From positions 186,001 through 250,000 of the forward strand of contig NZ_POWF01000002.1 of the NCBI RefSeq assembly GCF_002895005.1: DNA of 64,000 nt, read 5' to 3'. The stretch is from Hanstruepera neustonica. GTDB lineage: Bacteria; Bacteroidota; Bacteroidia; Flavobacteriales; Flavobacteriaceae. The notes beneath the pieces were generated by a model. The model had not been told where the DNA came from. It saw only the letters and a list, made by a program, of their open reading frames with translations, and ran no database searches. Below, piece after piece: positions 28,007-43,710 of the stretch. Numbering within the stretch: the first letter of the stretch is position 1; the number at the start of each line of letters is the position of its first letter. Both the position numbers and the translations under genes were made by a program.

Positions 28007-30076
28007 TCAATAGTTCAATAAATCTTCTATCTTCTTTTTCACTTTTGCTGTTGAAGGAATCATGGTTTGTTCCAATGTAGAATTTAACGGAATTGCCGGC
28101 ATGTTTTCACTACCTATAGTCATAACAGGCGCATCCAAATATTGGAAACATTCTTCTTGAATTTTACCTGCCAAAGCTCTTGCAAAACTATTATTACTAG
28201 GCTCTTCAGTAACAACTAAACATTTTCCTGTTTTCTTAACAGACTTCATGACGGTATCCTCGTCCAATGGATACAATGTTCTCAAATCAATAATCTCAAT
28301 TTGATCCCTCAAATTTAATTCTCCCGAAGCATTATAAGCCCAGTGTACACCCATTCCGTATGTAACAATCGTACAGGTTTCTACATCTTCCTGTTTCCAG
28401 ATTTCCTGTAACAACCAAGCTTTTCCAAAAGGCAACACATAATCTTCTGCAGGTTCCACGGACGTAGCCCCTTGTGTTCCTGGAACTTTAGACCAATATA
28501 AACCTTTATGCTCAAAAATCACGACTGGATTAGGATCATGATAGGCAGCCTTCATCAAGCCTTTCAAATCAGCTCCATTACTTGGATAGGCTATTTTTAC
28601 ACCTCTAATATTTGTCACAACACTTTCAACTGAAGATGAGTGATAAGGTCCGCCACTACCATACGCACCAATTGGCACACGTAAAATCATACTGACTGGC
28701 CATTTGCCATTACTTAAATAGCAGCTACGACTTACTTCAGTAAATAATTGGTTTAGTCCTGGCCAAATGTAATCCGCAAATTGGACCTCAACAATTGGTT
28801 TTAATCCAACAGCACTCATCCCAACTGTAGAGCCAATAATAAACGCTTCTTGAATGGGTGTATTAAAAACGCGGTCATCGCCAAACTTTTGTGCCAGTGT
28901 TGCCGCTTCACGAAAGACACCTCCAAGTCTCCCTCCTACGTCTTGACCATACAACAAACACTCTGGGTATTCTTTCATAAGTTCTTCAACAGCAAATAAA
29001 GCACAGTCAACCATCACTACCTTATCAGCTCCTTTTGGTGAACGCTCACCTGTTTCTTCTAAAATAGGTGTTGGAGCAAAATCATGTGTAAATAAATCTT
29101 CAGGTTTTGGATCTTCCGCTTTTAACGCTTTTTTAAAATCATTTTCTACTAACGTTTTTACATCAGCTTCAATCTTATTTATATCTTTTTGTGTAAAACC
29201 ATTATCCAATAATTGCTGTTTTAAAACCGGGTATGGATCACGTGATTTAGCTTCTTCCAAATCGTCACGATACCATTCCATGCGCACACCAGATGTATGG
29301 TGATTTAATAAGGGAACTTTTGCGTGAACTAAAAACGGACGACGTTCCTTACGAATGGTTTTTATGACTTTCTCAAGTGCCATATAACTTTCCATAAAAT
29401 TAGCGCCATCTATAGAAATAGCTTCTAATCCGTGAAACCCTTTTGCATATTCAGCTGCATTTTGTGCCCTAGTTTCAGCTTCATTTGCCGAAATATCCCA
29501 ACCATTATCTTGCACTAAATATAAAATGGGCATTTGCTTTAAAGCAGCCATTTGAAATGCCTCCGCAATTTCACCTTCCGTAACAGAAGCATCTCCCAAA
29601 CTACATACCGTAATTGGTAAATCCGAAGATAAATTAGCATCACTCAAATTTGGGTTTTTTAGGTTCTTCTTTTCTAAATATTGCATACCCATGGCAACAC
29701 CTGTTGCTGGAATAGCTTGCATTCCTGTAGCCGAAGATTGATGCGGGATTTTTGGTTTATCGGTATCTTTTAAACTGGGGTGAGCATAGTAAGTTCGACC
29801 ACCAGAAAACGGATCGTCTTTTTTGGCTAACACTTGAAGCATTAAATCATGTGGACGCATACCAAAAGCCAGAAGCATGGCATCATCTCGATAATAAGGG
29901 AAAGCGTAATCCTGCGGAAGTAATTGCATGCCCAAGGCAGTTTGAATGGCTTCATGTCCTCGAGACGTGGCATGCACATATTTAGACACCACTTTAAAAT
30001 TAGCTTCGTATAATTCCGCCATGGTTTTGGCAGTAACCAAATTTGTAAATGCCTTCTTTAATATTGTTTTGTTCAT
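28007..30076 (-). CDS. 2-oxo acid dehydrogenase E1, fused alpha and beta subunits
   Basis: This 689-residue thiamine-diphosphate enzyme joins E1-alpha and E1-beta in one chain. The alpha half has HQSSATGMQAIPATGVAMGMQ and the ThDP motif beginning GDASVTEGE at 161 and ending in DN about 30 residues later. The beta half starts near 345 (KVVMVDCALFAVEELMKEYP) and has QEAFIIGSTVGMSAVGLKPI and RVPIGAYGSGGPYHSSS. E1 decarboxylates a 2-oxo acid and passes the acyl group to lipoyl-E2. The usual annotation is branched-chain (2-oxoisovalerate) dehydrogenase. Its 4-base overlap with the E2 gene and its place at the end of the paa cluster make phenylpyruvate a possible substrate; that is inference. No E3 gene is present. 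Confidence 0.92.
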   Translation of the reverse strand: MNKTILKKAFTNLVTAKTMAELYEANFKVVSKYVHATSRGHEAIQTALGMQLLPQDYAFPYYRDDAMLLAFGMRPHDLMLQVLAKKDDPFSGGRTYYAHPSLKDTDKPKIPHQSSATGMQAIPATGVAMGMQYLEKKNLKNPNLSDANLSSDLPITVCSLGDASVTEGEIAEAFQMAALKQMPILYLVQDNGWDISANEAETRAQNAAEYAKGFHGLEAISIDGANFMESYMALEKVIKTIRKERRPFLVHAKVPLLNHHTSGVRMEWYRDDLEEAKSRDPYPVLKQQLLDNGFTQKDINKIEADVKTLVENDFKKALKAEDPKPEDLFTHDFAPTPILEETGERSPKGADKVVMVDCALFAVEELMKEYPECLLYGQDVGGRLGGVFREAATLAQKFGDDRVFNTPIQEAFIIGSTVGMSAVGLKPIVEVQFADYIWPGLNQLFTEVSRSCYLSNGKWPVSMILRVPIGAYGSGGPYHSSSVESVVTNIRGVKIAYPSNGADLKGLMKAAYHDPNPVVIFEHKGLYWSKVPGTQGATSVEPAEDYVLPFGKAWLLQEIWKQEDVETCTIVTYGMGVHWAYNASGELNLRDQIEIIDLRTLYPLDEDTVMKSVKKTGKCLVVTEEPSNNSFARALAGKIQEECFQYLDAPVMTIGSENMPAIPLNSTLEQTMIPSTAKVKKKIEDLLNY

Positions 30077-31386
30077 ATCTTTCTATCTACATCAAATTGT
30101 TCAAAATAATCGGCTACCCGTCGTACAAAACTACCTCCAAGAAATCCATCCACCACACGATGATCAAAAGACAAGGATAAATACATCATACTACGAATAG
30201 CAATTTCATCACCTTTTTCAGTTTCAATCACTTCTGGTCGTTTTTTAATAATGCCCAAAGCCAAAATAGCCACTTCTGGTTGGTTAATAATTGGCGTACC
30301 CATAACACTTCCAAACGTTCCAACGTTAGAAATAGTGAATGTACTACCTTGAATATCATCTGCTTTCAGGTTATTATCACGCGCTTTTTCAGCTAGATCA
30401 TTGACATTAGCAGCTAATTCCTGAAGATTTTTGGAATCCGCATTCCTGACCACTGGCACTATAAGATTACCACTTGGCAAAGCGGTCGCCATACCAATAT
30501 TGATATCATCTTTAACAATGATATTTTTTCCATCTACAGAAGCATTGATATTTGGGAAATCTTTTATGGCTTTGGCAACAGCCTCAACAAATAACGGTGT
30601 GAAGGTTAAACGTTCGCCATATTTTTCCTGAAAGGCCTTTTTATGTTTATTTCGCCAGTTAACCATATTCGTCAAATCGGCTTCCACATAGGCCGTTACA
30701 TGTGGTGATGTGTGCTTGGAGTACACCATATGATCGGCTATCATTTGACGCATTCTGTCCATTTCCACAATTTTACCTTTGCCTTTATCAAAATTTAACT
30801 GTGGAATACGATATGCCGTAGGGTCTTGAAGCATTGGTTGGGCAAATTGATACGGACGACCTTCTTCTATATAATTGAATACATCACTTTTTCGTAAACG
30901 TCCTTCCTTTCCTGTTGCTGGAATTCGAGCTAATTCTTCAAAACTAATATGGTGTTGTTTGGCAATTGAAATGACCAATGGTGAAAAGAATCGATCTTCG
31001 TTAGAAACTGTAAATGACGTGCCGCTCGAAGGCATGCTTATAGACGGCTTTGATACTGTTCTTTTCTTATTTTCCTTTTGTTTTACTTGAGGCTTTTCTT
31101 CAACCTTCAAAGGTGTTTCTTTCTTTTTAGATGCAGAAACTTTACCGTCTGTTTTGATAATTGCAATAGTCTCGCCTATTTTAATAACCTCATTCGCCTT
31201 ATACCGAATTTCCTCAACAACACCTGTAACGCTTGAAGGCACCTCGGAATCTACTTTATCTGTGGCAACTTCCAATAGCATTTCGTCTTGCTCAACCGTA
31301 TCACCAACATTCTTAAACCAAGTTATAATGGCGGCTTCGGTTATACTTTCACCCAATTTGGGCATTTTAAATTCGAATTTTGACAT
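30073..31386 (-). CDS. Dihydrolipoamide acyltransferase (E2) of a 2-oxo acid dehydrogenase complex
   Basis: The 437-residue protein has one N-terminal lipoyl domain (about 1-80, lipoylated Lys in EVATDKVDSEVPS), a Lys/Pro-rich linker, and a peripheral subunit-binding domain (about 132-175, SPLVISIAKQHHISFEELARI). The catalytic acyltransferase domain ends with SFDHRVVDGFLGG, including the His and Asp-Gly of the active site. It transfers the acyl group from E1 to CoA. The gene begins 3 bases after paaY and overlaps E1 by 4 bases (ATGA), so it is translated as part of the paa transcript. Acyl specificity (branched-chain, aryl or other) cannot be read from the sequence by eye. Confidence 0.94.
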   Translation of the reverse strand: MSKFEFKMPKLGESITEAAIITWFKNVGDTVEQDEMLLEVATDKVDSEVPSSVTGVVEEIRYKANEVIKIGETIAIIKTDGKVSASKKKETPLKVEEKPQVKQKENKKRTVSKPSISMPSSGTSFTVSNEDRFFSPLVISIAKQHHISFEELARIPATGKEGRLRKSDVFNYIEEGRPYQFAQPMLQDPTAYRIPQLNFDKGKGKIVEMDRMRQMIADHMVYSKHTSPHVTAYVEADLTNMVNWRNKHKKAFQEKYGERLTFTPLFVEAVAKAIKDFPNINASVDGKNIIVKDDINIGMATALPSGNLIVPVVRNADSKNLQELAANVNDLAEKARDNNLKADDIQGSTFTISNVGTFGSVMGTPIINQPEVAILALGIIKKRPEVIETEKGDEIAIRSMMYLSLSFDHRVVDGFLGGSFVRRVADYFEQFDVDRKI

Positions 31387-31389
31387 TCT

Positions 31390-31986
31390 TTATTGTTTCA
31401 TAAAATCGCGAAGGGTATCATAAGCTCCTTCTTGTATTTTCATTTTTTTTGGAACCTCGCGTAATGGTTCTACTTCCTTTAAACTCGCATGACAATCTTT
31501 AGGCAACTGTTGATACAATTGTGTTCCTTTAGTTTTCCATGCAATCATATCATCACTCACTTCTTTTACTACTTTAGCTGGATTACCAACCACTAAACTT
31601 CGCTTTGGAATTTTGGTTTCGGCTTTTACAAAAGCCATGGCTCCCACTATACTTTCATCACCTATTTCAGCATCGTCCATAATAACCGAGTTCATACCAA
31701 TCAAGCAATTCCTTCCCAAATTGGCACCATGAATAATGGCACCATGACCAACATGGGCACTTTCTTTTAATGTAATTGATTTACCCGGAAACATATGAAC
31801 GGTACAGTTTTCTTGAACGTTTACACCATCTTCCAGAATGATCTGTCCCCAATCACCACGAATAGCAGCTCCAGGACCTATGTAACAGTTTTTACCAATA
31901 ATTACATTTCCTGTAATTGCCGCCAATGGGTGAACAAAACTACTTTCGTGAACAACTGGTATGTAATCTTTAAATGAATATATCAT
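31390..31986 (-). CDS. paaY: PaaY-like hexapeptide-repeat thioesterase
   Basis: This 198-residue left-handed beta-helix protein matches the length of E. coli PaaY (about 196). It shows hexapeptide repeats from about 20 to 140 (ITGNVIIGKNCYIGPGAAI) and the metal ligands in CTVHMFPG and SAHVGHGAIIHG, as in gamma-carbonic-anhydrase relatives. PaaY-type enzymes hydrolyse CoA thioesters that would otherwise trap CoA during phenylacetate breakdown. Context in the paa cluster supports this over a generic carbonic anhydrase-like assignment. It is separated from the next upstream paa gene by the four-helix-bundle gene. Confidence 0.88.
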   Translation of the reverse strand: MIYSFKDYIPVVHESSFVHPLAAITGNVIIGKNCYIGPGAAIRGDWGQIILEDGVNVQENCTVHMFPGKSITLKESAHVGHGAIIHGANLGRNCLIGMNSVIMDDAEIGDESIVGAMAFVKAETKIPKRSLVVGNPAKVVKEVSDDMIAWKTKGTQLYQQLPKDCHASLKEVEPLREVPKKMKIQEGAYDTLRDFMKQ

Positions 31987-32020: not shown

Positions 32021-32395
32021 TCATTTAGATTTGCTTTTTAAATGTTTCATCAAAGCAGATAACATTTTATTGATTTCTACTAAAACCTCTCTGTTACTTT
32101 CGCTTTGTTCAAAAGAAATGTAACCTCTCAAATATGCCTTTGTGGTAGCAGCTACACATTCTTTTGAACTATCTCTTGCAATTCTTAAATAATTCAAAAA
32201 AACTGCATCTGAACTTCCTGAACCTTCTGCAATATTAAAGGCAATAGAATCAGCTGCTCGCGCAAATTGTGATGATAGCCTATAATCTTCAATTTTTGGA
32301 AAATCATTAAGCTGTTGATGCACTAACTCACCATACTCAATAGCTTTTTGATACACTTTTAACTCTTCAAAATTAAAATGATATTTACTTTTCAT
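32021..32395 (-). CDS. Four-helix-bundle protein (23S rRNA intervening-sequence type)
   Basis: A 124-residue protein of the S23 / four-helix-bundle family. Family signs are FEELKVYQKAIEYGELVHQ at the start, the LSSQFARAADSIAFNIAEGSG centre and YLRIARDSSKECVAATTKAY. Members are often found inside rRNA intervening sequences or as single genes scattered in Bacteroidota genomes; the biochemical role is unknown. Here it lies between paaY and the crotonase gene, where it has no apparent metabolic role. It has short flanks of 34 and 45 bases, in contrast to the tight packing of the neighbouring paa genes, which suggests a later insertion. Confidence 0.88.
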   Translation of the reverse strand: MKSKYHFNFEELKVYQKAIEYGELVHQQLNDFPKIEDYRLSSQFARAADSIAFNIAEGSGSSDAVFLNYLRIARDSSKECVAATTKAYLRGYISFEQSESNREVLVEINKMLSALMKHLKSKSK

Positions 32396-32440: not shown

Positions 32441-33193
32441 TCATTTAAATCGTTTTAAGGTCTCTTTTGTAAATTCACTTAATACCAAACGACCACTAAT
32501 GGCAGCACGTTCAGCTAATAAGTTATCCCAATCTTCAGTGCCTTTCCAAAAAATGGCTTTCATCTCTTGCATGGCTTCAGGATTGTAAGTACATAAATGT
32601 TCTGCAGCAGTCTTGACAGCTTCGTCCAATGCTTCGGTACTTTCAAATACTTGCGTAAACAAACCTTTTTCTTTTGCCCATTCGGCTGGATAAAAGGTAT
32701 TCGCATCAATGGCTATTTGAGACATGGCACTTAACCCCATTTTACGCTCAATAGCTGGACCAACTACAAACGGTCCTATACCAATATTCAATTCGCTTAA
32801 TTTTATAGCTGCAAACTTGGTTGCCATGCAATAATCTGTAGCGGCTGCCAATCCTACTCCACCTCCAACCGTTTTGCCTTGAATACGGCCAATAATAAAT
32901 TTGGAACATTTTCGCATGGCATTAATGACATTAGCAAAACCAGAGAAAAACACTTTACCTGTGGCATCATCATTTATATTAATTAATTCTTTAAAACTGG
33001 CCCCAGCACAAAATGTTCTGTCTCCGCCACTTTTTAATACGATGACTTTTATAGCATCATTTGTTCCCGCATCGGTTATGGTTTGGGCTAATTCTGCCAA
33101 AACATCACCTGGCAAGGAATTATGTGCAGGATGAAAAAATTCTATATAGCCTACTTCATTTACAATATCCAACTTTACGTAAGGATCACTCAT
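32441..33193 (-). CDS. Crotonase-family enoyl-CoA hydratase in the paa cluster
   Basis: This 250-residue crotonase has the oxyanion-hole segments GDRTFCAGASFKEL and IQGKTVGGGVGLAAATD. At the position of the first catalytic Glu of classical enoyl-CoA hydratase it has Gly (GGGVGLAAATD), while the second acidic residue is kept in KLSELNIGIGPFVVGPAI. That pattern recalls LiuC/methylglutaconyl-CoA hydratase-type sequences more than E. coli PaaF. Context would call for the 2,3-dehydroadipyl-CoA hydratase step, but the substrate is uncertain. It ends 25 bases from the start-side of the paaZ stop and is probably in the same transcript. Confidence 0.85.
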   Translation of the reverse strand: MSDPYVKLDIVNEVGYIEFFHPAHNSLPGDVLAELAQTITDAGTNDAIKVIVLKSGGDRTFCAGASFKELININDDATGKVFFSGFANVINAMRKCSKFIIGRIQGKTVGGGVGLAAATDYCMATKFAAIKLSELNIGIGPFVVGPAIERKMGLSAMSQIAIDANTFYPAEWAKEKGLFTQVFESTEALDEAVKTAAEHLCTYNPEAMQEMKAIFWKGTEDWDNLLAERAAISGRLVLSEFTKETLKRFK

Positions 33194-33217: not shown

Positions 33218-35755
33218 TTATATTAATCCAAATTGTTCAAAATGGTGATTCAAGTGCTTACGCTCCAATAAATACCATTCATATCGGTTCATGTTGCCAA
33301 ACACCGCATTTTTCAATACTGCCTCTGGCTGTTCTTTAAAAAACTCCAAATAGGCTTCGCGAGATTCGATTAGTTTGGATTTGGCGGCTTCCAAACTATC
33401 ATATTTGGTTTCTTTTATCTTTGATTTTTCGGCTAATGGAAAATCATATTGACGCGGCATTTTATCATAATTGTATAAAGTCGCATGAACTTTTTCCAAT
33501 ATCTTTTCTGGTGTTGCTATATCAAAATCTTGAATGTCACCCGATGCAATTCTATAGGTATATTCTAAATGTTCGACCATTTGTTGTGGCGTCATGGTTC
33601 CCCATAGCGGTTTAGAATCTTCTGTTAATTTGTTTAGGCATTCATGGATTTTATCATTAGTCATTTCAACAAAAGTCTGTTGCTTTTTCTCGACCATGGT
33701 TAATATTGTAGCCACTGCTACTAATGGACTATCCTTATCCGTCTTTTGACTTGCTGGCCTATTCTCAAAATTTGCATCGAATACCTCAACATGCCACTTG
33801 ACAATACCACTTGGATGTTCTTTACCGTTAACATCTCTATCAACTTTTTCTTTACAGGTCAATCGCACATAAATGGTGTCGTTGTGATATAAGGGTCTTA
33901 AAAATCGGATGGAATCCAAACCATAATTTGCTGCGACAGGACCCTTGTTGGGATAAACAAATAAACCAGCCGCAGCTGAAATAATGAAGTAACCATGAGC
34001 CGTACGTTTTTCAAAAATACTGCCATCCAGTGATGTAATATCGGTATGTGCATAAAAATGATCCCAAGTTAAATTGGCAAAATTTTGTATATCGGAATCT
34101 GTTAGTGTACGCTTGTGCGTTTTTAAAGACATTCCTGGTTGAATATCCTCCCAGTGATATTTAAACAGATGATCCTCGGCATCTTTATACTTGGCGTTTT
34201 GCTGATAAATACCAGTAATTTTAGTAATAGTTGAAGGCGTACCTTGAATAGCTGTACGTTGTAAATAGTGTTTTATACCACGCAATCCACCCATTTCTTC
34301 ACCACCACCTGCGCGTCCGGGACCACCATGAACCAAATAAGGTAGTGGTGAGCCATGTCCTGTACTTTCTTTTGCCATTTCACGATTAATCACCAAAATA
34401 CGTCCATGATGACTCGCTGCATTTACAACATATTCGGTTGCAATTTTATCATCAAAAGTTGCGATTGATGAAACTAAAGATCCTTTACCCATTTGCGCTA
34501 ATTGAACTGCCTCATCCAGAGTTTTGTACGGCATAATGGTACTTACTGGACCAAAAGCTTCTCTTTCATGAACCGCGTGACTTTTAAAGGGTTCATTTGT
34601 TCTAAATAATACTGGGCTTATGAACGCGCCTTTATTAGCATCAGCACCAATGGTCTCCAATTTATCTAAATTGCCATATACTATTTCAGCCTCTTTGGCG
34701 ATATCTGAAATAGAATTTCTAACGGCTTCGACTTGTTGTTTACTTACTAAAGATCCCATGCGAACCTCTTTTAATCGCGGGTCACCGATAGTTACTTTAT
34801 CCAATTCTTTCCCTAAAGCAATCTGAACATCTTCAACTAAATTTTCCGGAACAATAATACGTCGGATAGCAGTACATTTTTGACCAGCTTTAACCGTCAT
34901 TTCTTTTCTAATCTCTTTAATAAAGAGATCAAATTCAGGTGTTCCAGGAACCGCATCTTCACCTAAAACAGCCGCATTTAAGGAATCAGCTTCCATAGTA
35001 AATGGCACGGATTCCTGAATTAATCTTGGATGCGCTTTTAATAATCTTCCTGTAGAAGCAGAACCAGTAAAAGTCACAACATCTTGAGATTCAACTGTAT
35101 CTAATATAGAAGTCACCGTACCATTAATTATTTGTAAAGCGCCTTCTGGTAAGATACCCGAATTAATAATTTCTCTTGCAACAGCTTCTGCCAAATATGA
35201 TGACGAAGGTGCTGGCAAAACAATTGCTGGCACTCCGGCCATCCAGTTAACCGCACACTTTTCTAGCATTCCCCAAACTGGGAAGTTAAATGCATTGATG
35301 TGCACAGCAACCCCTTTTTTAGGGACCATGATGTGATGCGCCATAAATCGTCCGCCACGTGATAAATCAATAGGATCACCTTCAACATGATAGGGTTGGT
35401 TGGGGAATAACTTTCTTAAGGATGCATTGGCGAACAAGTTACCGAAACCACCTTCAATATCTATCCAACTATCTACTTTTGTCGCACCTGTGCGATAACT
35501 TAATTCGTAAAAAGCCTCCTTTCGTTTGGTCAAATATAACGCGAGACTCTTAAGCATGTTTCCACGCTCTTGAAAAGTCATCTTACGAAGTTCCTCTCCT
35601 CCTTTTGTTCGTCCATAATTAAGAACCTCCGGAATATCCAATCCTTCTACTGCCCAGTTAGTAAAATGTTCACCCGTTATGGCATCATAAATAGGCATAC
35701 CTTCTTCTTTGCCTTCAGTCCATTGTCCTTGGACATAATGTTTTATTTTGTTCAT
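33218..35755 (-). CDS. paaZ: Bifunctional PaaZ with an extra C-terminal DUF1569/DinB-like domain
   Basis: PaaZ opens the oxepin-CoA ring and oxidises the resulting aldehyde. The N-terminal aldehyde dehydrogenase domain (about 1-515) has the catalytic Cys in VKAGQKCTAIRR and the Glu in FTMEADSLNAAV. The MaoC-like hydratase domain (about 530-680) has TWDHFYAHTD with its Asp/His pair. E. coli PaaZ is about 681 residues; this one is 845. The extra 155 residues (KPLWGTMTPQQMVEHLEY ... ERKHLNHHFEQFGLI) resemble DUF1569, a DinB-superfamily helical metal-binding fold. The frame is continuous, so this is a fusion and not a frameshift artefact. What the extra domain does is unknown. Confidence 0.93.
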   Translation of the reverse strand: MNKIKHYVQGQWTEGKEEGMPIYDAITGEHFTNWAVEGLDIPEVLNYGRTKGGEELRKMTFQERGNMLKSLALYLTKRKEAFYELSYRTGATKVDSWIDIEGGFGNLFANASLRKLFPNQPYHVEGDPIDLSRGGRFMAHHIMVPKKGVAVHINAFNFPVWGMLEKCAVNWMAGVPAIVLPAPSSSYLAEAVAREIINSGILPEGALQIINGTVTSILDTVESQDVVTFTGSASTGRLLKAHPRLIQESVPFTMEADSLNAAVLGEDAVPGTPEFDLFIKEIRKEMTVKAGQKCTAIRRIIVPENLVEDVQIALGKELDKVTIGDPRLKEVRMGSLVSKQQVEAVRNSISDIAKEAEIVYGNLDKLETIGADANKGAFISPVLFRTNEPFKSHAVHEREAFGPVSTIMPYKTLDEAVQLAQMGKGSLVSSIATFDDKIATEYVVNAASHHGRILVINREMAKESTGHGSPLPYLVHGGPGRAGGGEEMGGLRGIKHYLQRTAIQGTPSTITKITGIYQQNAKYKDAEDHLFKYHWEDIQPGMSLKTHKRTLTDSDIQNFANLTWDHFYAHTDITSLDGSIFEKRTAHGYFIISAAAGLFVYPNKGPVAANYGLDSIRFLRPLYHNDTIYVRLTCKEKVDRDVNGKEHPSGIVKWHVEVFDANFENRPASQKTDKDSPLVAVATILTMVEKKQQTFVEMTNDKIHECLNKLTEDSKPLWGTMTPQQMVEHLEYTYRIASGDIQDFDIATPEKILEKVHATLYNYDKMPRQYDFPLAEKSKIKETKYDSLEAAKSKLIESREAYLEFFKEQPEAVLKNAVFGNMNRYEWYLLERKHLNHHFEQFGLI

Positions 35756-35773: not shown

Positions 35774-35803
35774 GACTCCACATCAAACGTGGAATGACAA
35801 ATC
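35774..35803. repeat. Intergenic hairpin repeat, copy 1 (TGACAAATC end)
   Basis: TCCAC (35777-35781) pairs with GTGGA (35789-35793), followed at once by ATGACAAATC. It sits between paaJ and paaZ, touching the paaJ stop codon. It shares its GAATGACAAATC end with the copies at 39909 and 42526. Confidence 0.6.
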
Positions 35804-37019
35804 ATTTAATATTTACATTTTCAATAATTGCAGCATAACCTTGCCCAACACCTACACACATTGTGACCAAAGCATAACGTTTATTTTGTTCTTGTAATTC
35901 TAAAGCAGCCGAATAAGCAATTCTTGCCCCTGTAACACCCAATGGATGACCAATAGCAATGGATCCTCCATTTGGATTTAATCTAGGATCATCATCGGCT
36001 AATCCCCAAGCTCTAGTACATGCCAAAGCTTGTGCTGCAAAAGCTTCGTTAAGCTCAATGATATCTATATCGTCCATCGTTAGACCCGCTTTTGCCAATG
36101 CTTTGTTTGAAGCTTCAACAGGACCTATGCCCATAATTCTGGGTTCTACCCCAACCACAGCGGAACTAACGATTCTTGCCAATGGTTTTAAGTTATATTT
36201 TTTAACCGCTTCGTCTGATGCAATAATGGTAGCTACTGCACCATCATTCAATCCTGATGAATTACCAGCAGTCACACTTCCGCCTTCGCTTTTAAAAGCA
36301 GGGCGTAATTTTGCTAAGATATCTTTTGTGGTTGTTGGTTTAACAAATTCATCTTTTGAAAACACGATGGGGTCTTTTTTACGTTGCGGAATGGTCACTG
36401 GAACAATCTCCTTAGCTAACCGTCCATTTTCCTGCGCTTTGGTTGCTTTCATTTGACTCCAATAGGCAAATGCGTCCTGATCTTCACGTGAAATATTATG
36501 AATTTCCACCAAGTTTTCAGCCGTGTTTCCCATGCCATCTGTACCATACATTTTTTCCATCATCGGATTTATAAAACGCCAGCCAAAACTACTGTCATAC
36601 ATTTTAGCATCTGTACCAAAGGCACTTGACGCTTTTGCAATGACATATGGGCCTCTGGTCATATTTTCCACACCTCCTGAAATAAAAAGATCGCCATCTC
36701 CGGCTTTAATAGCTCTATTAGCGTGAATGATAGCTGATAATCCTGAACTACATAAGCGATTAACAGTTTCACCAGGAACGGTATATGGTAATCCTGCCAA
36801 TAGCGAGCACATACGTGCCACGTTACGGTTATCCTCACCTGCTTGATTGGCACAGCCTAAAATAACATCGTCATAAGCCTCTTTTGGGATATTAGGATTG
36901 CGCTTTACAATTTCTTTAATGACCAATGCTCCTAAATCATCTGTACGAACGACTGATAAGGTCCCTTTGTAATTTCCTATAGGTGTTCTGATACCATCTA
37001 TTATATATGCTTCTTTCAT
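35802..37019 (-). CDS. paaJ: 3-oxoadipyl-CoA / 3-oxo-5,6-dehydrosuberyl-CoA thiolase
   Basis: This 405-residue thiolase has the nucleophile Cys in NRLCSSGLSAIIHANRA, then NEAFAAQALACTRAWG, GHPLGVTGARIAYSAALEL and the second Cys in TMCVGVGQGYA. In the paa pathway it cleaves the C8 and C6 3-oxoacyl-CoA intermediates to acetyl-CoA and succinyl-CoA. Its start overlaps the stop of the small secreted-protein gene by 4 bases (ATGA). The name follows E. coli usage; Pseudomonas literature uses PaaE for this enzyme. Position in the cluster strongly supports the assignment over a generic acetyl-CoA acetyltransferase. Confidence 0.93.
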   Translation of the reverse strand: MKEAYIIDGIRTPIGNYKGTLSVVRTDDLGALVIKEIVKRNPNIPKEAYDDVILGCANQAGEDNRNVARMCSLLAGLPYTVPGETVNRLCSSGLSAIIHANRAIKAGDGDLFISGGVENMTRGPYVIAKASSAFGTDAKMYDSSFGWRFINPMMEKMYGTDGMGNTAENLVEIHNISREDQDAFAYWSQMKATKAQENGRLAKEIVPVTIPQRKKDPIVFSKDEFVKPTTTKDILAKLRPAFKSEGGSVTAGNSSGLNDGAVATIIASDEAVKKYNLKPLARIVSSAVVGVEPRIMGIGPVEASNKALAKAGLTMDDIDIIELNEAFAAQALACTRAWGLADDDPRLNPNGGSIAIGHPLGVTGARIAYSAALELQEQNKRYALVTMCVGVGQGYAAIIENVNIK

Positions 37020-37453
37020 TCTTCTATTATTTTAGCAGATTTTGCAGCTTCAACAATCATCTGATAATAATTCTCTTTTTTATCATTTGGCATGAATGCC
37101 ATCAAATTTATTATTTGATTTTCTCCAGCTTTTTTCATTATCAATAATGTAAAAACAACTTCTTCGTTTTTTTGCTCAACTTCTTGAATAAAGAAAATTT
37201 TAGTTCCCTCAATGAATCCCATTTCAACATTTTCTCCAAAGGATTTATCACCTTTAGCTTCATTTATCAAATTTTGAAAATCACCTGGGACTATCATCGT
37301 TTTCAGCATGGCTCCATCCTCCGTGATTAGAAACTCTCCTAGATCCTTAAATACATTTCTATTTATTTCAAAAGATATCTCGTTTTGACCCAATGACAAA
37401 TAACTATTTGTAACGAAAAATAGACATATTAAAACTTTAAAAAATCTATTCAT
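37016..37453 (-). CDS. Small secreted protein of unknown function inside the paa operon
   Basis: I start at ATG 37453 (145 residues), which overlaps the paaI stop as TAATG; an in-frame TTG at 37462 would give three more residues. The start MNRFFKVLICLFFVTNSYLSLGQ is a signal peptide. The mature part is a mixed alpha/beta chain of about 122 residues with no Cys and no motif I recognise. It overlaps paaI by 1 base and paaJ by 4 bases, so it is tightly coupled to two cytoplasmic catabolic genes although it should be exported. Possible roles (envelope sensing, uptake of aromatics) are speculation. Confidence 0.7.
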   Translation of the reverse strand: MNRFFKVLICLFFVTNSYLSLGQNEISFEINRNVFKDLGEFLITEDGAMLKTMIVPGDFQNLINEAKGDKSFGENVEMGFIEGTKIFFIQEVEQKNEEVVFTLLIMKKAGENQIINLMAFMPNDKKENYYQMIVEAAKSAKIIEE

Positions 37454-37857
37454 TATTCCCAATCTTTTTGAGTGCGATAAACCACTCCCTTAAAAAGGGC
37501 TACCAATTCATCATCGCGTTTGACTTCTATGATATTAAATCCTAATTTAGTATTAACCTTTTCAATGACTGATTCGGCAACCAAATAATCACCTTCTTCC
37601 AATGCTTCAATATGATTAATACTAGTTTCGATGGATACTGCAAATTTACCATGTGTATTGGCTGCAAATCCAAAAGCGGTGTCAGCTAATGCATAACTAA
37701 TGCCGCCATGAGCTTTCCCCATACTATTTAACATATCATTCCTGACAGTCATTGCAACACGGCAACGACCAATTTCACATTCCAATATTTCTATACCCAA
37801 CCATGTGCTGAATGGATCTAGACTCAACATTTTATGTGGAATTAATTCTCCTTTCAT
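37453..37857 (-). CDS. paaI: Hydroxyphenylacetyl-CoA thioesterase PaaI
   Basis: A hotdog-fold thioesterase of 134 residues from ATG 37857. The GTG at 37872 is in frame but falls inside the end of an intergenic repeat (GTGACAAATTC), so I reject it as start. The hotdog core NSMGKAHGGISYALADTAFGFAAN carries the conserved HGG and the Asp of the PaaI subfamily. E. coli PaaI removes CoA from ring-hydroxylated phenylacetyl-CoA dead ends and rescues CoA. The stop codon overlaps the next gene by one base. Length and context both fit. Confidence 0.9.
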   Translation of the reverse strand: MKGELIPHKMLSLDPFSTWLGIEILECEIGRCRVAMTVRNDMLNSMGKAHGGISYALADTAFGFAANTHGKFAVSIETSINHIEALEEGDYLVAESVIEKVNTKLGFNIIEVKRDDELVALFKGVVYRTQKDWE

Positions 37858-37861
37858 ATTT

Positions 37862-37947
37862 GAATTTGTCACTTCGAGTGATTTTCGAAAGAAAATTGTA
37901 TCGAGAAGTTTCGCTTGTTCTCGATACGCTTCGCAATCGAACTGACG
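37862..37947 (-). repeat. Intergenic hairpin repeat, long copy with GTATCGAGAA arms
   Basis: This element fills the gap between paaH and paaI. GTATCGAGAA (37898-37907) and TTCTCGATAC (37918-37927) are perfect 10-base arms around a 10-base loop. Read on the minus strand the element ends in CACTCGAAGTGACAAATTC, similar to the ends of the other copies. Such CTCGATAC elements are familiar intergenic repeats of flavobacterial genomes, as I recall. Confidence 0.7.
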
Positions 37948-39105
37948 CTAGTTAAAAAATGTTTTATTTTCTCTATTCATTTCCCGTAACATCGGACTAC
38001 AACGATAGCGGTCTTCGTGATACTCGTTATACAACTCATCTAGTTTTGCAACACACCAATCAATACCTTTTTCATCAGCCCATGCTAATAAGCCTTTAGG
38101 ATAGTTAACCCCTTTTGTCATGGCATTATCAATATCTTCAGCAGAAGCAATATTCAAAAACAAGGCATCTGCCGCCTCATTAATAAGCATTACTAACACA
38201 CGGTCAAAAATTGATTGTGATAATTCATGGTCTTGCGTTGGTTCAGGTTTAGTCGCAGCTTCTGAATAGTCATAATAGCCTTTTCCAGATTTTCGTCCTA
38301 AATAACCTGCTTCTGCAAATCGTTTTTGAGTAAAGCTTGGTTTATACCTTGGATCGAAATAGAACGCCGTAAACACAGTTTCTGTTACTGTATAATTAAC
38401 ATCGTTCCCTATGAAATCCATTAGTTCAAATGGTCCCATTCTAAAACCACCGAGAGTTTTTAAACTATGGTCTATCGTTGCAAAATCAGCTATACCTTCT
38501 TCATAGATACGGAGGGATTCACCATAAAACGGCCTTGCAACTCTATTGACAATAAACCCGGGAGTATCTTTGGCTACAGCCACTGTTTTTTTCCAGTTTT
38601 TAATGATATCAACTGATTTATCTAAAACCGTCTTTGAGGTTTGCACAGCTGGAATGACCTCAACCAATTTCATTAATGGTGCTGGATTGAAAAAGTGTAT
38701 ACCGATACAGCGTTCCGGTTTTTGCAATGATGAAGCTATTGAAGCTATTGACAAACTCGACGTGTTTGATGCGATAATGCATTCGTCTGCAACATAGCTT
38801 TCCAATTCAGAAAAAACTTTCTTTTTTATATCTAGGTTTTCGATAATGGCTTCAATGGTCAAGTTGGAATCTCCTAAATCCTTTAAGCTATCCACATAGG
38901 TAATATGTCCTTGTATTCTTGATTTTTCATCAGAATCGATACGTCCCTTTTCCACTAATCGACTCAATATTTTTTCTAAACTATCTTTGGCTTTATCTAA
39001 AGCCGCTTGGTTGGTATCGTATAATTTGACCTGGCAACCTGCAGTGGCAGCCACTTGCGCAATGCCACTTCCCATAGTTCCAGAACCGATGATTCCTACA
39101 TTCAT
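37948..39105 (-). CDS. paaH: 3-hydroxyacyl-CoA dehydrogenase PaaH
   Basis: The 385-residue enzyme has an N-terminal Rossmann NAD-binding motif (VGIIGSGTMGSGIAQVAA), the active-site region ERCIGIHFFNPAPLMKLVEVI and two C-terminal 3HCDH domains (about 185-280 and 295-380). It oxidises 3-hydroxyadipyl-CoA to 3-oxoadipyl-CoA in the lower paa pathway. E. coli PaaH is longer (about 475 residues); this size suits the shorter form. Its ATG overlaps the paaG stop as TAATG. The 86-base gap downstream, before paaI, is taken up by the long hairpin repeat. Confidence 0.92.
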   Translation of the reverse strand: MNVGIIGSGTMGSGIAQVAATAGCQVKLYDTNQAALDKAKDSLEKILSRLVEKGRIDSDEKSRIQGHITYVDSLKDLGDSNLTIEAIIENLDIKKKVFSELESYVADECIIASNTSSLSIASIASSLQKPERCIGIHFFNPAPLMKLVEVIPAVQTSKTVLDKSVDIIKNWKKTVAVAKDTPGFIVNRVARPFYGESLRIYEEGIADFATIDHSLKTLGGFRMGPFELMDFIGNDVNYTVTETVFTAFYFDPRYKPSFTQKRFAEAGYLGRKSGKGYYDYSEAATKPEPTQDHELSQSIFDRVLVMLINEAADALFLNIASAEDIDNAMTKGVNYPKGLLAWADEKGIDWCVAKLDELYNEYHEDRYRCSPMLREMNRENKTFFN

Positions 39106-39890
39106 TATTTTCCTTTAAAAGTTGGCTTGCGTTTTTCAACAAATGCCGAAACACCTTCGGTGTAATCATCTGTTTGAGCCGCTTCGATTTGTAATTTTGA
39201 TTCCAACGCCAATTGCTGCTCCAAATTATTAGTCAACGATTGGTTGAAGGCTTCTTTTATTTTTCCTAATGCCAATGTTGGCATATTGGCCATTTTAAGT
39301 GCTAACTTGTTCACTTCCTCTTGAAAACTATCAAACGGAATGACTTTATAAATCATTCCCATTTTTTCAGCTTCTTCTGCCGAAACCTTATCTCCTAACA
39401 TAGCTAATGCTGATGCTTTTTGAAACCCAATTAAACGCGGTAAGAAAAATGTACCCGCACTATCAGGTATCAGTCCTATAAGACTAAAGGCTTGAATAAA
39501 ACTGACATTTTCGTGGGCCACAACAACATCACAAGCTAGGGCAATATTTGCTCCAGCTCCAGCAGCCACACCATTTATTGCTCCAATTACAGGTTTTTTT
39601 ATATTCCTTATTCTTGTAATAATCGGATTGTAATGCTCCTCCAATATCTTTTTAAACCCTGGATTCAATTCTGGAGTTGTGACTTCTTTTAAATCTTGAC
39701 CAGCGCAAAACGCTTTTCCATTTCCAGTTAAAACAATGGCTCTAACTTCTTTATTTGATTCACAATCATCAAAAACTGTCTGTAACCTTAAAGCCATTTC
39801 ACGATTGAAACTGTTAAAAACTTCAGGTCGGTTAAGTGTTATGTACGCTATGTTGTCTTCAATTTTTAATGCAATTGAATTGCTACTCAT
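39105..39890 (-). CDS. paaG: 1,2-epoxyphenylacetyl-CoA isomerase PaaG
   Basis: A crotonase-fold isomerase of 261 residues that converts the ring epoxide to oxepin-CoA. It aligns by eye with E. coli PaaG along its length: ITLNRPEVFNSFNREM, GKAFCAGQDLKEV, INGVAAGAGANIALACDVV, FSLIGLIPDSAGTFFLPRL and the C-terminal YTEGVSAFVEKRKPTFKGK. The classical hydratase Glu positions are replaced, and the PaaG-type Asp in LIPDSAG is present. It follows paaD after a repeat-bearing 49-base gap and is coupled to paaH by a 1-base overlap. Confidence 0.94.
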   Translation of the reverse strand: MSSNSIALKIEDNIAYITLNRPEVFNSFNREMALRLQTVFDDCESNKEVRAIVLTGNGKAFCAGQDLKEVTTPELNPGFKKILEEHYNPIITRIRNIKKPVIGAINGVAAGAGANIALACDVVVAHENVSFIQAFSLIGLIPDSAGTFFLPRLIGFQKASALAMLGDKVSAEEAEKMGMIYKVIPFDSFQEEVNKLALKMANMPTLALGKIKEAFNQSLTNNLEQQLALESKLQIEAAQTDDYTEGVSAFVEKRKPTFKGK

Positions 39891-39939: not shown

Positions 39940-40440
39940 TTATTTTAAACATTTAAAATAATCAAATGGCTCTTGGCAGTCTTCACACTGAAATTGTGCC
40001 TTGCACGCTGTTGAACCAAATTGACTGACCATTTTAGTGTTTTTACTTCCACATTGAGGGCATTTCACTAATTTCTTACCATGAAGCAAAACATCTTTAT
40101 CAGCTTCAGCTTCCAATGGAGCCGCTATACCATATTTTTCCAATGCTTCCCTTCCTTTTGGTGTAATCCAATCGGTTGTCCAAGCAGGATGCAGAATTAA
40201 ATCAATTTCAGACTCATAACCAGCATCTTTTAAAGCCTTTTTAATATCATCACCAATAACATCCATGGCTGGGCAACCACTGTAGGTTGGTGTGATTTCA
40301 ATTTTCACTAGATTATTTTCGATAACAGCTGAACGTACAACACCCATATCCATAATAGAAAGCACAGGAATTTCAGGGTCTGACACTTGTTCCAAAATTG
40401 GAATTAAGTTTTCGTCTATATGTTGTTCTTGTGTTACCAT
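39940..40440 (-). CDS. paaD: Phenylacetyl-CoA epoxidase assembly protein PaaD
   Basis: A 166-residue protein with an N-terminal MIP18/DUF59 domain (about 8-95, VSDPEIPVLSIMDMGVV and PTYSGCPAMDVIGDD) and a C-terminal zinc-ribbon-like part with CPQCGS and CEDCQ pairs (about 128-157). PaaD is needed for activity of the PaaABCE epoxidase and is thought to help deliver Fe-S or diiron cofactors. The gene follows paaC after 67 bases that contain a hairpin repeat. Alternative naming (PaaJ) occurs in other organisms. Confidence 0.93.
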   Translation of the reverse strand: MVTQEQHIDENLIPILEQVSDPEIPVLSIMDMGVVRSAVIENNLVKIEITPTYSGCPAMDVIGDDIKKALKDAGYESEIDLILHPAWTTDWITPKGREALEKYGIAAPLEAEADKDVLLHGKKLVKCPQCGSKNTKMVSQFGSTACKAQFQCEDCQEPFDYFKCLK

Positions 40441-40507: not shown

Positions 40508-41263
40508 TTACCATTCCATATTGGGATATGCCCGTTGCATATATTGTAATTCAGCCAATAAATAGCCTAAATGTTCGGTGTGAATACCTTGTTTGCCGCC
40601 TTTTTGAAAATATTTCCTCTCTGGAATTTCCAAGGTAGCTTCTTCCAAGATATTCCCAACTTGATTGTAATAGTCATCTTTTAACTTCGTAACATCTACA
40701 CCTATACCTTCAGCTACCATGACTTTATCGGCTTCTGTTTGATGAAATAACTCATCGGTATATGTCCATAAATCATTTATGGCCATTTGAATACGGTCAT
40801 GACTTTCTGATGTCCCATCACCCAAACGTTTGATCCAATCTGAAGAAAATCGTTTATGATAACTAACTTCCTTTAGTGATTTAGTTGCAATGGCTGAAAG
40901 TGTTAAATCTTGACTTTTTTCAAGTTCCGTTAGCATTAAGAAATGATAAACATCAAACAAAAATTGTCTAGCTATGGTATAGCCAAAATCCGTATTGGGC
41001 TGTTCTACTAATAGTACATTTAAATAATCACGCTCTTTTCGTAGCATAGCGATGTCATCTTCTTTTCGCCCATCTCCAGCAATTTTAGCAGCATATTGAT
41101 AAAAGCTTCGCACTTGACCTAACAAATCCAGAGAGATATTAGTACATGCAATATCTGTTTCCAAAGTTGGACCATGCCCACATAATTCACCTAAACGCTG
41201 ACCTAAAATCAGATTATTGTCAGCAATACCAAGAATATAATTGTATAAATTTTCGTTTTTCAT
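40508..41263 (-). CDS. paaC: Phenylacetyl-CoA epoxidase structural subunit PaaC
   Basis: A ferritin-like helical subunit of 251 residues. Marks include YILGIADNNLILGQRLGELCGHGP at the start, DIACTNISLDLLGQ, LLVEQPNTDFGYTIARQFLFD, EVSYHKRFSSDWIKRLGDGT and the C-terminal HTEHLGYLLAELQYMQR. In the epoxidase, PaaC forms the scaffold pair with catalytic PaaA. The start overlaps the paaB stop by one base, which fits tight stoichiometry. Full length compared with the E. coli protein (about 248). Confidence 0.95.
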   Translation of the reverse strand: MKNENLYNYILGIADNNLILGQRLGELCGHGPTLETDIACTNISLDLLGQVRSFYQYAAKIAGDGRKEDDIAMLRKERDYLNVLLVEQPNTDFGYTIARQFLFDVYHFLMLTELEKSQDLTLSAIATKSLKEVSYHKRFSSDWIKRLGDGTSESHDRIQMAINDLWTYTDELFHQTEADKVMVAEGIGVDVTKLKDDYYNQVGNILEEATLEIPERKYFQKGGKQGIHTEHLGYLLAELQYMQRAYPNMEW

Positions 41264-41553
41264 TACATATGTTTTACTTCATCTGGTAAATCATAAAACG
41301 TTGGGTGACGATATACCTTATCTTGAGCTGGCTCAAACAATTCTCCATTGTGTTCTGGGTTTGAAGCTGTAATATGCTTTGATTCAACTACCCAAATACT
41401 GACGCCTTCATTACGACGCGTGTAGACGTCACGAGCATTTTCAAGAGCCATTTCTGCATCAGCCGCATGAAGACTTCCAAAATGACGGTGTTCTAATCCA
41501 TTTTTACTTCTCACAAATACCTCCCATAGAGGCCAGTTCTTTTTATCTGACAT
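41263..41553 (-). CDS. paaB: Phenylacetyl-CoA epoxidase subunit PaaB
   Basis: A 96-residue protein with the family signature WPLWEVFVRSKNGLEHRHFG, DAEMALENARDVYTRRNEGV and SIWVVESKHITASNP. PaaB bridges PaaAC heterodimers in the multicomponent epoxidase. It starts two bases after paaA stops and overlaps paaC by one base. Length is that of the known family (about 95). Confidence 0.95.
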   Translation of the reverse strand: MSDKKNWPLWEVFVRSKNGLEHRHFGSLHAADAEMALENARDVYTRRNEGVSIWVVESKHITASNPEHNGELFEPAQDKVYRHPTFYDLPDEVKHM

Positions 41554-41555
41554 AT

Positions 41556-42512
41556 CTAAACCGCTTGTTTATTTTTTAATTCACTCTTTTTATCGGCATA
41601 AGCCATGGCAGCATCTCTTACCCAAGCGCCATTTTCCCAAGCATTAACTCTTGCTTTCATACGCTCTTTATTACATGGACCATGACCTTTTACCACTTGC
41701 CAAAACTCATCCCAATCAATTTCACCAAAGTCATAACCTTGCTTGGCTTCATTCCATTTTAAATCCGGATCCGGAATTGTCAATCCTAATATGTCGGCTT
41801 GAGGTACTGTTTGGTCAATAAATTGTTGACGCAAGTCATCATTTGTTTTTCTTTTTAGTTTCCACTTCATGGATTGAGCCGTATGTGGTGATTCATCATC
41901 TTTAGGACCGAACATCATTAAAGATGGCCACCAAAAACGATTTAATGCGTCTTGCGCCATGTCCTTTTGCTCTGGCGCTCCGTTAGCTAATTTTAGCATG
42001 ATTTCATAGCCTTGTCTTTGATGAAAACTTTCTTCCTTACAAATTCTGACCATAGCTCTGGCATATGGCCCATAAGATGTTCCACATAACGCCACTTGAT
42101 TAATAATTGCTGCGCCATCAACCAACCAACCAATAGCTCCCATATCAGCCCATGTTAAGGCTGGATAATTGAATATGGACGAATATTTAGCCTTACCTGT
42201 ATGCAATTGATCAAACATTTCATCACGTGAAATACCTAATGTTTCAGCTGCACTATAGAGATACAGACCATGTCCGCCTTCATCCTGAACTTTTGCCAGA
42301 AGCGCCACTTTTCGTCTTAAAGAAGGTGCTCTGGTTATCCAGTTACCTTCTGGTAGCATTCCCACAATTTCAGAATGGGCATGCTGCGAAATCTGACGAA
42401 TGTGGGTTTGCCTGTATTTTTCAGGCATCCAATCTTTAGGTTCAATTTTATCATCACGTAAAATTCGCGCTTCAAATTGTTCTTCTAAATTTTTTATTTG
42501 TTCTTCACTCAT
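41556..42512 (-). CDS. paaA: Phenylacetyl-CoA epoxidase catalytic subunit PaaA
   Basis: The 318-residue diiron subunit matches E. coli PaaA over nearly its whole length by eye. The two Glu-x-x-His iron motifs are visible in [16 protein letters not shown] and [33 protein letters not shown] and [20 protein letters not shown] are also conserved. It inserts one oxygen atom into the ring of phenylacetyl-CoA to give the 1,2-epoxide. A repeat-containing gap of 71 bases separates it from paaE. The start ATG at 42512 matches the family N terminus. Confidence 0.96.
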
Positions 42513-42583: not shown

Positions 42584-43657
42584 TTAAACATCGAAATCAA
42601 CGACTACTTTATCTGATGTTGGCACCGCTTGGCAACTCAATACATAGTTTTGAGCCACTTCCTTATCTTCTAGGGCATAATTAATTTTCATTTCTACCGC
42701 TCCTTCCTTAACTTGACATTTACAGGTGCTACACACCCCTCCTTTACAAGCAAAAGGCAAATCGGCCCCTGCACCTAAAGCAGCATCTAAAATATTATCA
42801 TATTCCTTGGTCATGGTAAATAAAAACTCTTTACCACCATCAATTATGGTTACTTGAGTACCTTCTACATTTTGTTGTGAGAGACGTTCAGCCCTTTTTA
42901 TGTCTTCTTCAGTCAGCCCTTTAACAAATAACTCAAAGTGAATTAACTCTTTTGGCAAACCGGCATTGGCTAAATAATTACTCACGTAATTGACCATATC
43001 TTCCGGACCACATAAAAACACCTCGCTAGTATCCGGAATATCAATAAATGTTCCCGTAAGAACTTTCATTTTTTCATCATCAAAACGACCGTTGAAAAGT
43101 TCTATATCACGTCTTTCTTTAGTTAGGAAATAATAGATTTCCAATCGCCCAAAATAGGTGTTTCGTAATTGCTCTAGTTCTTCCTTAAAGATAATGGATT
43201 TTGCGGTCTTATTCACATAAAACAGCTTGCATGTAGAATTAGGTTCAGCTGCTAAATGTGTTTTAATCATGGACATGATTGGTGTAATACCACTGCCAGC
43301 AGCAAAAAACAAATAATTTTTAGCATTTGTGGTATTCGTTTTTACTCCAAATGTACCACTCGGTTCCATAATATCGAGCACGTCACCTTTTTTAAGTGTG
43401 GTATTGACATAGGTAGAGAATTTACCTCCTGGAATTTGCTTTACAGCCACTTTCCATTGGTCTTCCATAGGGCTTGAACATAAGGAATAGGATCGTCTTA
43501 AATCTTCACCATCTATAAGGGTTCGCAACGTTAAATGTTGACCTTGTGCGTATTTAAAAGTCTCTTTTAAATCTTCCGGGATATCAAAAGTTACTACCGA
43601 AGTATCTTTTGTCTCTTTGTAAATATCTTTAATTTTTATTTTATGAAAGTCTGCCAT
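42584..43657 (-). CDS. paaE: Phenylacetyl-CoA epoxidase reductase PaaE
   Basis: Starting at ATG 43657 gives 357 residues beginning MADFHKIKIKD, the expected N terminus; an upstream in-frame codon at 43705 would run through the operator. An FAD/ferredoxin-NADP reductase-like part (about 1-235) has the FAD motif RRSYSLCSSP and FFAAGSGITPIMSMIK. A C-terminal plant-type [2Fe-2S] ferredoxin domain (about 265-357) has CKGGVCSTCKC and a fourth Cys in VLSCQAVP. It passes electrons from NADPH to the PaaA diiron centre. It is the first catabolic gene after the regulator. Confidence 0.95.
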   Translation of the reverse strand: MADFHKIKIKDIYKETKDTSVVTFDIPEDLKETFKYAQGQHLTLRTLIDGEDLRRSYSLCSSPMEDQWKVAVKQIPGGKFSTYVNTTLKKGDVLDIMEPSGTFGVKTNTTNAKNYLFFAAGSGITPIMSMIKTHLAAEPNSTCKLFYVNKTAKSIIFKEELEQLRNTYFGRLEIYYFLTKERRDIELFNGRFDDEKMKVLTGTFIDIPDTSEVFLCGPEDMVNYVSNYLANAGLPKELIHFELFVKGLTEEDIKRAERLSQQNVEGTQVTIIDGGKEFLFTMTKEYDNILDAALGAGADLPFACKGGVCSTCKCQVKEGAVEMKINYALEDKEVAQNYVLSCQAVPTSDKVVVDFDV

Positions 43658-43676
43658 ACAAATTAAAAAAACCATT

Positions 43677-43696
43677 AAACTAACACTTGTTAGTTT
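43677..43696. promoter_or_regulatory. Candidate operator for the TetR-type paa regulator
   Basis: AAACTAACACTTGTTAGTTT is a perfect inverted repeat with 9-base arms and a 2-base centre. It lies 7 bases downstream of a -7-like box and 20 bases upstream of paaE, where a repressor would cover the transcription start. Its core CTAAC-n4-GTTAG resembles, from memory, the CNAACGNNCGTTNG-type site reported for the TetR-family PaaR of Thermus. No second copy was noticed near the tetR start. Confidence 0.7.
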
Positions 43697-43702
43697 GCTT
43701 GA

Positions 43703-43710
43703 CAAATTTA
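43703..43710 (-). promoter_or_regulatory. Candidate -7 box of the paa operon
   Basis: On the minus strand TAAATTTG matches the Bacteroidota TAnnTTTG box exactly. It sits in the 69-base gap between the regulator and paaE, next to the palindrome. A TTG lies upstream at a shorter distance than usual, so the -33 element is uncertain. Confidence 0.5.

Follow-up and report, generated by a model that had tools for sequence, protein, structure and literature searches.

The window analyzed here, a 64,000-bp stretch of Hanstruepera neustonica contig NZ_POWF01000002.1 (positions 186,001 to 250,000), contains a 16-kb operon for the phenylacetyl-coenzyme A (CoA) epoxidase (Paa) pathway, which lies throughout on the minus strand and ends with genes for the E2 and fused E1 components of a 2-oxo acid dehydrogenase. 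The operon has 17 open frames running from a TetR gene (44296) to the E1 gene (28007), with intergenic gaps of -10 to 75 bases, and none of the 17 codes for the CoA ligase PaaK. Only 3 bases separate paaY from the E2 gene (30073 to 31386), and the E2 and E1 (28007 to 30076) genes share 4 bases; a preliminary description of the locus had pointed out both this placement, which the coordinates confirm exactly, and the lack of a paaK-like ligase in the window. The 437-aa E2 has the lipoyl, E3-binding, and catalytic domains of a dihydrolipoyl acyltransferase, and the 689-aa E1 is an alpha-beta fusion that combines E1_dh, Transket_pyr, and Transketolase_C domains in a single polypeptide, identifying the pair as 2-oxo acid dehydrogenase components. 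The same description proposed that the complex feeds the pathway from phenylpyruvate, and that proposal is the subject of this analysis.

From its head, the operon codes for a TetR-family regulator (43727 to 44296; TetR-type models, all below cut-off), the reductase PaaE (42584 to 43705), the epoxidase catalytic subunit PaaA (41556 to 42512), PaaB (41263 to 41553), PaaC (40508 to 41263), PaaD (39940 to 40440; TIGR02159, 186.8 bits, above cut-off), a PaaG-type isomerase (39105 to 39890; TIGR02280, 303 bits, below the cut-off of 345), PaaH (37948 to 39105), a PaaI-type thioesterase (37453 to 37872), a small protein whose gene overlaps both paaI and paaJ (37016 to 37462) and which has no Pfam or NCBIfam match at 0.001, the thiolase PaaJ (35802 to 37019; TIGR02430, 603.8 bits, above cut-off), and PaaZ (33218 to 35755; ALDH and MaoC; TIGR02278, 861 bits, above cut-off). 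These are followed by an enoyl-CoA hydratase family protein, here called ECH2 (32441 to 33193; PF00378), a four-helix-bundle protein of the 23S rRNA intervening-sequence (IVP) type (32021 to 32395; TIGR02436, PF05635), which is an insertion in the operon and probably stands outside the pathway, and a PaaY-like thioesterase (31390 to 31986; TIGR02287, 236 bits, below the cut-off of 319.6), and then by E2 and E1. PaaE, PaaB, PaaC, PaaH, and PaaI are named by sequence reading and operon position, and PaaA scores above the curated cut-off for the Paa pathway (TIGR02156, 535 bits against 280). The content is that of a canonical Paa operon in having paaABCDE, G, H, I, J, Z, and Y (several named by reading), but it differs in its lack of PaaK, the E2 and E1 genes at its end, and the TetR-type gene at its head. 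Scans for sigma-70-like promoters (55 seen, 62.6 in shuffles), terminators (13 and 12.2), and Bacteroidota-type promoters (3 seen, 5.8 expected) gave no promoter excess and a terminator count close to that of the shuffles.

The whole genome (3.05 Mb in 16 contigs, 99.99% complete, with the window within contig C9) was searched for PaaK, as the preliminary description had advised, and none was found: the best match to TIGR02155 reaches 168 bits, whereas the cut-off is 646. The best PaaK-family match is the flexirubin protein FlxY (754 bits, cut-off 520), and this low-scoring candidate for a second PaaK was rejected. Five E1 genes score above 100 bits, in addition to two weak matches, and comprise a 333-aa frame taken as the pyruvate dehydrogenase (PDH) alpha subunit, a 929-aa frame taken as 2-oxoglutarate dehydrogenase (OGDH), a 668-aa fusion, the 689-aa window E1, and an 803-aa fusion; there are four E2 genes. 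Orthologues of the window E1 are referred to here as E1-689, and the 668-aa paralogue on contig C11 as E1-668. The E1-668 alpha half best matches branched-chain E1, and the beta half also matches PDH; E1-668 is probably a branched-chain enzyme paired with the E2 at C9:31984, which is 50% identical to the operon E2 (the other two E2s are 32 to 34% identical to it). The second bkd-type set that the earlier description suggested looking for is thus present, and neither of the two genome findings named there as counting against its proposal (a paaK elsewhere, and this as the only branched-chain E1/E2) was seen. The third fused E1, of 803 aa (L012:8893-11304, on contig C14), is 27% identical to the window E1 and falls below the cut-offs of all NCBIfam models it matches.

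The window E1 likewise passes no cut-off among the NCBIfam models matched, its best score against the PDH E1 equivalogs being 206 bits (cut-off 454). The solved structures scoring best against it are 2-oxoisovalerate dehydrogenases, with PDH E1 chains matching too; kinship of this sort does not determine a substrate. Orthologues were sought in a set of 80 genomes made up of the H. neustonica genome and its relatives, with families given as f-numbers and genomes as G handles; since the closest loci that carry names belong to Flavobacteriaceae, the home family f1 is assumed to be this family and the class to be Bacteroidia. E1-689 is present in 38 of the 80, with orthologues 58 to 100% identical, and all other E1 matches to an E value of 1e-60 have 30 to 37% identity, save the second fragment of one split gene; judged by sequence, E1-689 is a discrete E1 clade. 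One further E1-689 gene, at 75% identity, is on a contig labelled as a Rickettsiales metagenome-assembled genome (L207), which is probably a mis-binned Bacteroidota contig.

Residues were tabulated for 106 E1-689 sequences of 120 aligned (81 from the window and named loci, 3 from f5, 2 from f2, and 20 from the class set described below). T117 and W193 are invariant (106/106), and E1-668 has L and Y at these positions; among the solved enzymes, position 117 is I in 1um9 and position 193 is Y in both 1um9 and 1dtw. H260, E410, and H479, which we take to be residues with catalytic roles, are conserved, and positions 117, 193, and 438 presumably lie near the cofactor. The f5 proteins have G in place of D194 and Y in place of W438, but this was rejected as a meaningful signature because single positions vary elsewhere (G194 in L113, L123, and L124; N194 in L085 and L088; F438 in L200) and the three f5 genomes belong to one genus. 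In the residue comparison recommended in the preliminary description, the clade has a signature of its own at positions 117 and 193, distinct from 1um9, 1dtw, and E1-668 and common to the PaaK-containing f5, and that signature alone names no substrate.

PaaA is present in 34 of the 80 genomes, of which 33 also have E1-689; five have E1-689 only (G049, G062, G064, G071, and G073), one has PaaA only (G072), and 41 have neither. Within f1 (49 genomes) agreement is complete, with 22 genomes having both and 27 neither. The two genes are on one contig in 27 of the 33 genomes with both, including that of H. neustonica, and in 24 of these 27 the E1 gene shares its strand with paaA and lies downstream of it within 34 kb; in f1 this is true of all 19 contiguous cases, at 10.9 to 17.6 kb. 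Such consistent order argues that the linkage of E1 and paaA is not due to chance. Only four of the 80 genomes have a PaaK scoring at least 550 bits, namely G026 and three f5 genomes in which the paa operon opens with PaaK and E1-689 is located elsewhere. Low-scoring PaaK-family matches number 23, in 23 genomes, and are more common with PaaA (17/34, the four true-PaaK genomes included) than without it (6/46); the 11 scanned, from H. neustonica and 10 of the 22 relatives, are all FlxY, so that a second PaaK in the relatives is not supported.

A class-wide set of 296 genomes, each at least 95% complete, has E1-689 in 224 and PaaA, always above the curated cut-off, in 222. Both are present in 218 genomes, E1-689 only in six (G132, G139, G165, G188, G323, and G364), PaaA only in four (G236, G271, G294, and G348, drafts of ∼160 to 290 contigs), and neither in 68; counted by genus (n = 167), the corresponding numbers are 125, 1, 0, and 41. 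The odds ratio by Fisher's test is 618, although the genomes are not independent, and for this reason the control with E1-668 carries more weight. E1-668 is present in 252 of the 296 genomes and also tracks PaaA, but more loosely (209/222 PaaA-containing genomes and 43/74 of those lacking PaaA, in which E1-689 is found in only 6). Seven families (f1, f18, f29, f39, f44, f46, and f71) mix two genome types, one with PaaA and E1-689 and the other with neither but with E1-668, and at least one f1 genome without PaaA (G298) also lacks E1-668; f39 includes three of the discordant genomes (G139, G348, and G364). PaaA and E1-689 are on separate contigs in all seven f39 genomes having both and in 10 of 11 such f44 genomes, so their joint loss need not have been one deletion; a one-deletion account of the co-occurrence is weakened, although these are drafts with some of the genes near contig ends. 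The class-wide search for PaaK used a single f5 PaaK as its query and an E cut-off of 1e-110, at which a more distant PaaK would be missed. Matches are found in 15 of the 296 genomes, seven with PaaA (510 bits or more) and eight without it (389 to 422 bits), and a strong PaaK is absent by this search from 215 of the 222 PaaA genomes.

The neighborhoods of E1-689 place it with both paa genes and aminotransferases. Among the top 80 of at least 589 named loci, which are mostly from Flavobacteriaceae (genera including Winogradskyella, Psychroserpens, Lacinutrix, Aquimarina, and Flavobacterium) and several of which are on short contigs, the nine frames upstream of E1 include, on the same strand, E2 in 72, ECH2 in 67, paaY in 65, and paaZ in 59. 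Of these 80 loci, 52 include an aminotransferase gene, which in 48 cases immediately precedes E1 (51 of all 120 loci, less L076, L077, and L093); the window operon has no clustered aminotransferase. Of 40 loci from the G genomes, some of them selected because PaaA is close by, 17 have ECH2 and 11 have paaZ. With 3 of 20 class loci excluded as PaaA-near picks, ECH2 or paaZ is near E1-689 in 5 of 17 (P = 0.014), and with five further picks that share a contig with PaaA excluded, in 3 of 12 (P = 0.044), compared with none of 20 E1-668 loci, 5 of which end early at contig ends. The E1-668 loci have one weak match each to paaD (36%), paaE (44%), paaG (27%), and a HisC-like reference (23%). Outside f5, no PaaK-like gene was recognized beside paa genes, where only genes similar to the reference set were labelled. 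The PaaK-containing genome G338 (L109) has an Lrp-like gene before E1 and an aminotransferase gene after it; this aminotransferase scores above the HisC cut-off and may therefore simply be a histidine gene.

Some side observations concern the neighboring genes. In L172 (7874-8257), L196 (9558-9938), and L199 (9553-9789), small look-alike genes occupy the gap between E2 and E1 that is the aminotransferase site elsewhere; the first is PF13366 (PDDEXK_3), and the other two are judged by eye to be its counterparts. The four-helix-bundle gene has different insertion points in the paa operons of different relatives, as if mobile: it is between ECH2 and paaY in the window, between paaA and paaB and between paaH and paaI among L095, L184, L192, and L197, and directly upstream of E1 in L187, L190, and L193. 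The window PaaZ is extended at its C terminus by ∼180 residues that have no Pfam match at 1e-3 and, we presume, resemble a DinB-type domain; long PaaZ proteins (832 to 869 aa) are also found in three f1 relatives (L093, L107, and L108), compared with ∼680 to 716 aa in other families. ECH2 reaches no cut-off among its 25 top-scoring NCBIfam models (best 97 bits, cut-off 283) and is also beside E1-689 in genomes that lack PaaA (L085, L087, and L088).

The Paa steps, as described in section 11 of PMC9007349, name no other 2-oxo acid, and a dehydrogenase of this kind linked with PaaA is therefore best placed upstream of them. We consider it probable that E2 and E1 provide the paa operon with its entry step, converting phenylpyruvate to phenylacetyl-CoA for degradation by Paa, with phenylpyruvate suggested as the substrate by genomic context. 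Phenylalanine (Phe) would be transaminated to phenylpyruvate, in H. neustonica by an enzyme encoded outside the operon and in the many relatives with an aminotransferase gene between E2 and E1 perhaps by the clustered enzyme, whose action on Phe is assumed. E1 and E2, with a presumably shared E3, would oxidatively decarboxylate phenylpyruvate and pass the acyl group to CoA (phenylpyruvate + CoA + NAD+ -> phenylacetyl-CoA + CO2 + NADH), and the product would be handed to PaaABCDE. Free phenylacetate and the ATP-consuming PaaK would be bypassed with a gain of one NADH, and the organism would be expected to use phenylalanine and not external phenylacetate. Entry from phenylpyruvate would also explain why few PaaA genomes show PaaK.

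The phenylpyruvate step in Phaeobacter inhibens is catalyzed by an indolepyruvate ferredoxin oxidoreductase, whereas no match to IorA was found in the H. neustonica genome, and an IorA route to phenylacetyl-CoA was set aside. The proposed route nonetheless resembles that of P. inhibens, described in a review as leading from Phe through phenylpyruvate to phenylacetyl-CoA without free phenylacetate (PMC7497051), in skipping the free acid. An enzymatic likeness, by description, is to the pyruvate-dehydrogenase-like PglB/PglC, an E1 alpha/beta type enzyme proposed to convert phenylpyruvate to phenylacetyl-CoA in the biosynthesis of pristinamycin (L-phenylglycine) by Streptomyces pristinaespiralis (PMC7089894, PMC10685826). 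PglB and PglC are described as products of separate subunit genes in an antibiotic cluster, with the product going to phenylglycine and Paa acting as a competing drain, whereas the window has a fused E1 with an E2 inside a catabolic paa operon. Literature searches turned up no account of a Paa pathway lacking PaaK in Bacteroidota.

A number of observations weigh against phenylpyruvate entry as the dedicated role of E1-689. All seven genomes with both PaaK and PaaA retain E1-689, which must then be more than a stand-in for PaaK. E1-689 is present without PaaA in 6 of the 296 class genomes and 5 of the 80, of which G062, G071, and G073 keep the adjoining ECH2. The only clustered aminotransferase scanned, that of L093, belongs to a branched-chain family (TIGR01123, 332 bits, cut-off 250), and E1-689 in f5 is near Met gamma-lyase-like and Lrp-like genes (named by reading). 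Of E1-689 and E1-668, only the former was found in f5, in f2, and in 13 PaaA-containing genomes of the class, so that it may also serve branched-chain acids. The assignment of E1-668 as the branched-chain enzyme is itself inferred, its beta half fitting PDH too. The ligase search covered the PaaK family, with other AMP-binding ligases, Phe hydroxylase, and HPPD outside its scope. The phenylpyruvate proposal of the preliminary description is accordingly strengthened by the co-occurrence with PaaA, the 215 PaaA genomes without a strong PaaK, and the clustered aminotransferases, and tempered by the family of the aminotransferase and the lineages having E1-689 alone.

The foremost alternative, also raised in the preliminary description, is that the pair forms a standard branched-chain 2-oxo acid dehydrogenase (BCKDH, 2-oxoisovalerate dehydrogenase) for Val, Leu, and Ile, grouped with a branched-chain aminotransferase in an amino acid catabolism cluster, with the PaaA co-occurrence reflecting nothing but an amino-acid-degrading lifestyle. 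The pair resembles BCKDH in its domains, its best-scoring solved relatives, and the 50% identity of the operon E2 to another E2 of the same genome, and differs from it in the T117 and W193 of E1-689 and in the tie to PaaA. The best-scoring structures, the TIGR01123 aminotransferase, and the lineages showing only E1-689 agree with this alternative. Against it, H. neustonica has another such set in E1-668 and the E2 at C9:31984, and 43 of the 74 genomes lacking PaaA have E1-668 whereas 6 have E1-689. It would also leave 215 of 222 PaaA genomes with no identified source of phenylacetyl-CoA. ECH2 or paaZ, moreover, is near E1-689 in some of the class loci and near E1-668 in none of 20, 5 of which end early. 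We regard this alternative as weakened and unlikely.

It is quite improbable, in our estimate, that E1-689 is a broad 2-oxo acid dehydrogenase acting on phenylpyruvate and branched-chain acids (or 2-oxobutyrate) alike, with the aromatic role one of several. Its retention both with and without E1-668 and its varied neighbors (Met gamma-lyase-like in f5, the HisC-scoring and perhaps histidine-related aminotransferase of L109, and a branched-chain-type aminotransferase in many Flavobacteriaceae) would suit such an enzyme, but its co-occurrence with PaaA, discordant in only 10 of 296 genomes, is tighter than a generalist would need. E1-689 may still have some broad or branched-chain activity, given the aminotransferase family and the lineages showing only E1-689. 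That a CoA ligase of the AMP-binding type unlike PaaK makes phenylacetyl-CoA, with E1/E2 acting on an unrelated 2-oxo acid, is very improbable, since the low-scoring PaaK-family proteins are FlxY in H. neustonica and the 10 relatives scanned and no PaaK-like gene was recognized beside paa genes outside f5 among genes similar to the references, even though the survey was confined to the PaaK family and class matches weaker than 1e-110 would be missed.

Phenylpyruvate entry through E1-689 may have consequences beyond H. neustonica. We put at about even the chance that the default Paa pathway of Bacteroidia is ligase-free, with E1-689 as a dedicated phenylpyruvate dehydrogenase providing its normal entry, together with its own E2 and, in many Flavobacteriaceae, an aminotransferase; this would be a pathway for phenylalanine and not phenylacetate, which surveys keyed to PaaK miss. 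Section 21 of a 2026 ligase-keyed survey describes complete Paa pathways as uncommon in Flavobacteriia and Cytophagia (PMC13186573), in contrast with the presence of PaaA in 222 of 296 class genomes, only 7 of which have a strong PaaK. The E3, the aminotransferase substrate, and the growth phenotype are predicted features of this proposal, the last in the simple form of growth on Phe and none on phenylacetate. The proposal would also give a function to an E1 that falls below all cut-offs of the NCBIfam models it matches and, if true, would mean that annotation has overlooked a second, ATP-sparing way into a widespread aromatic pathway.

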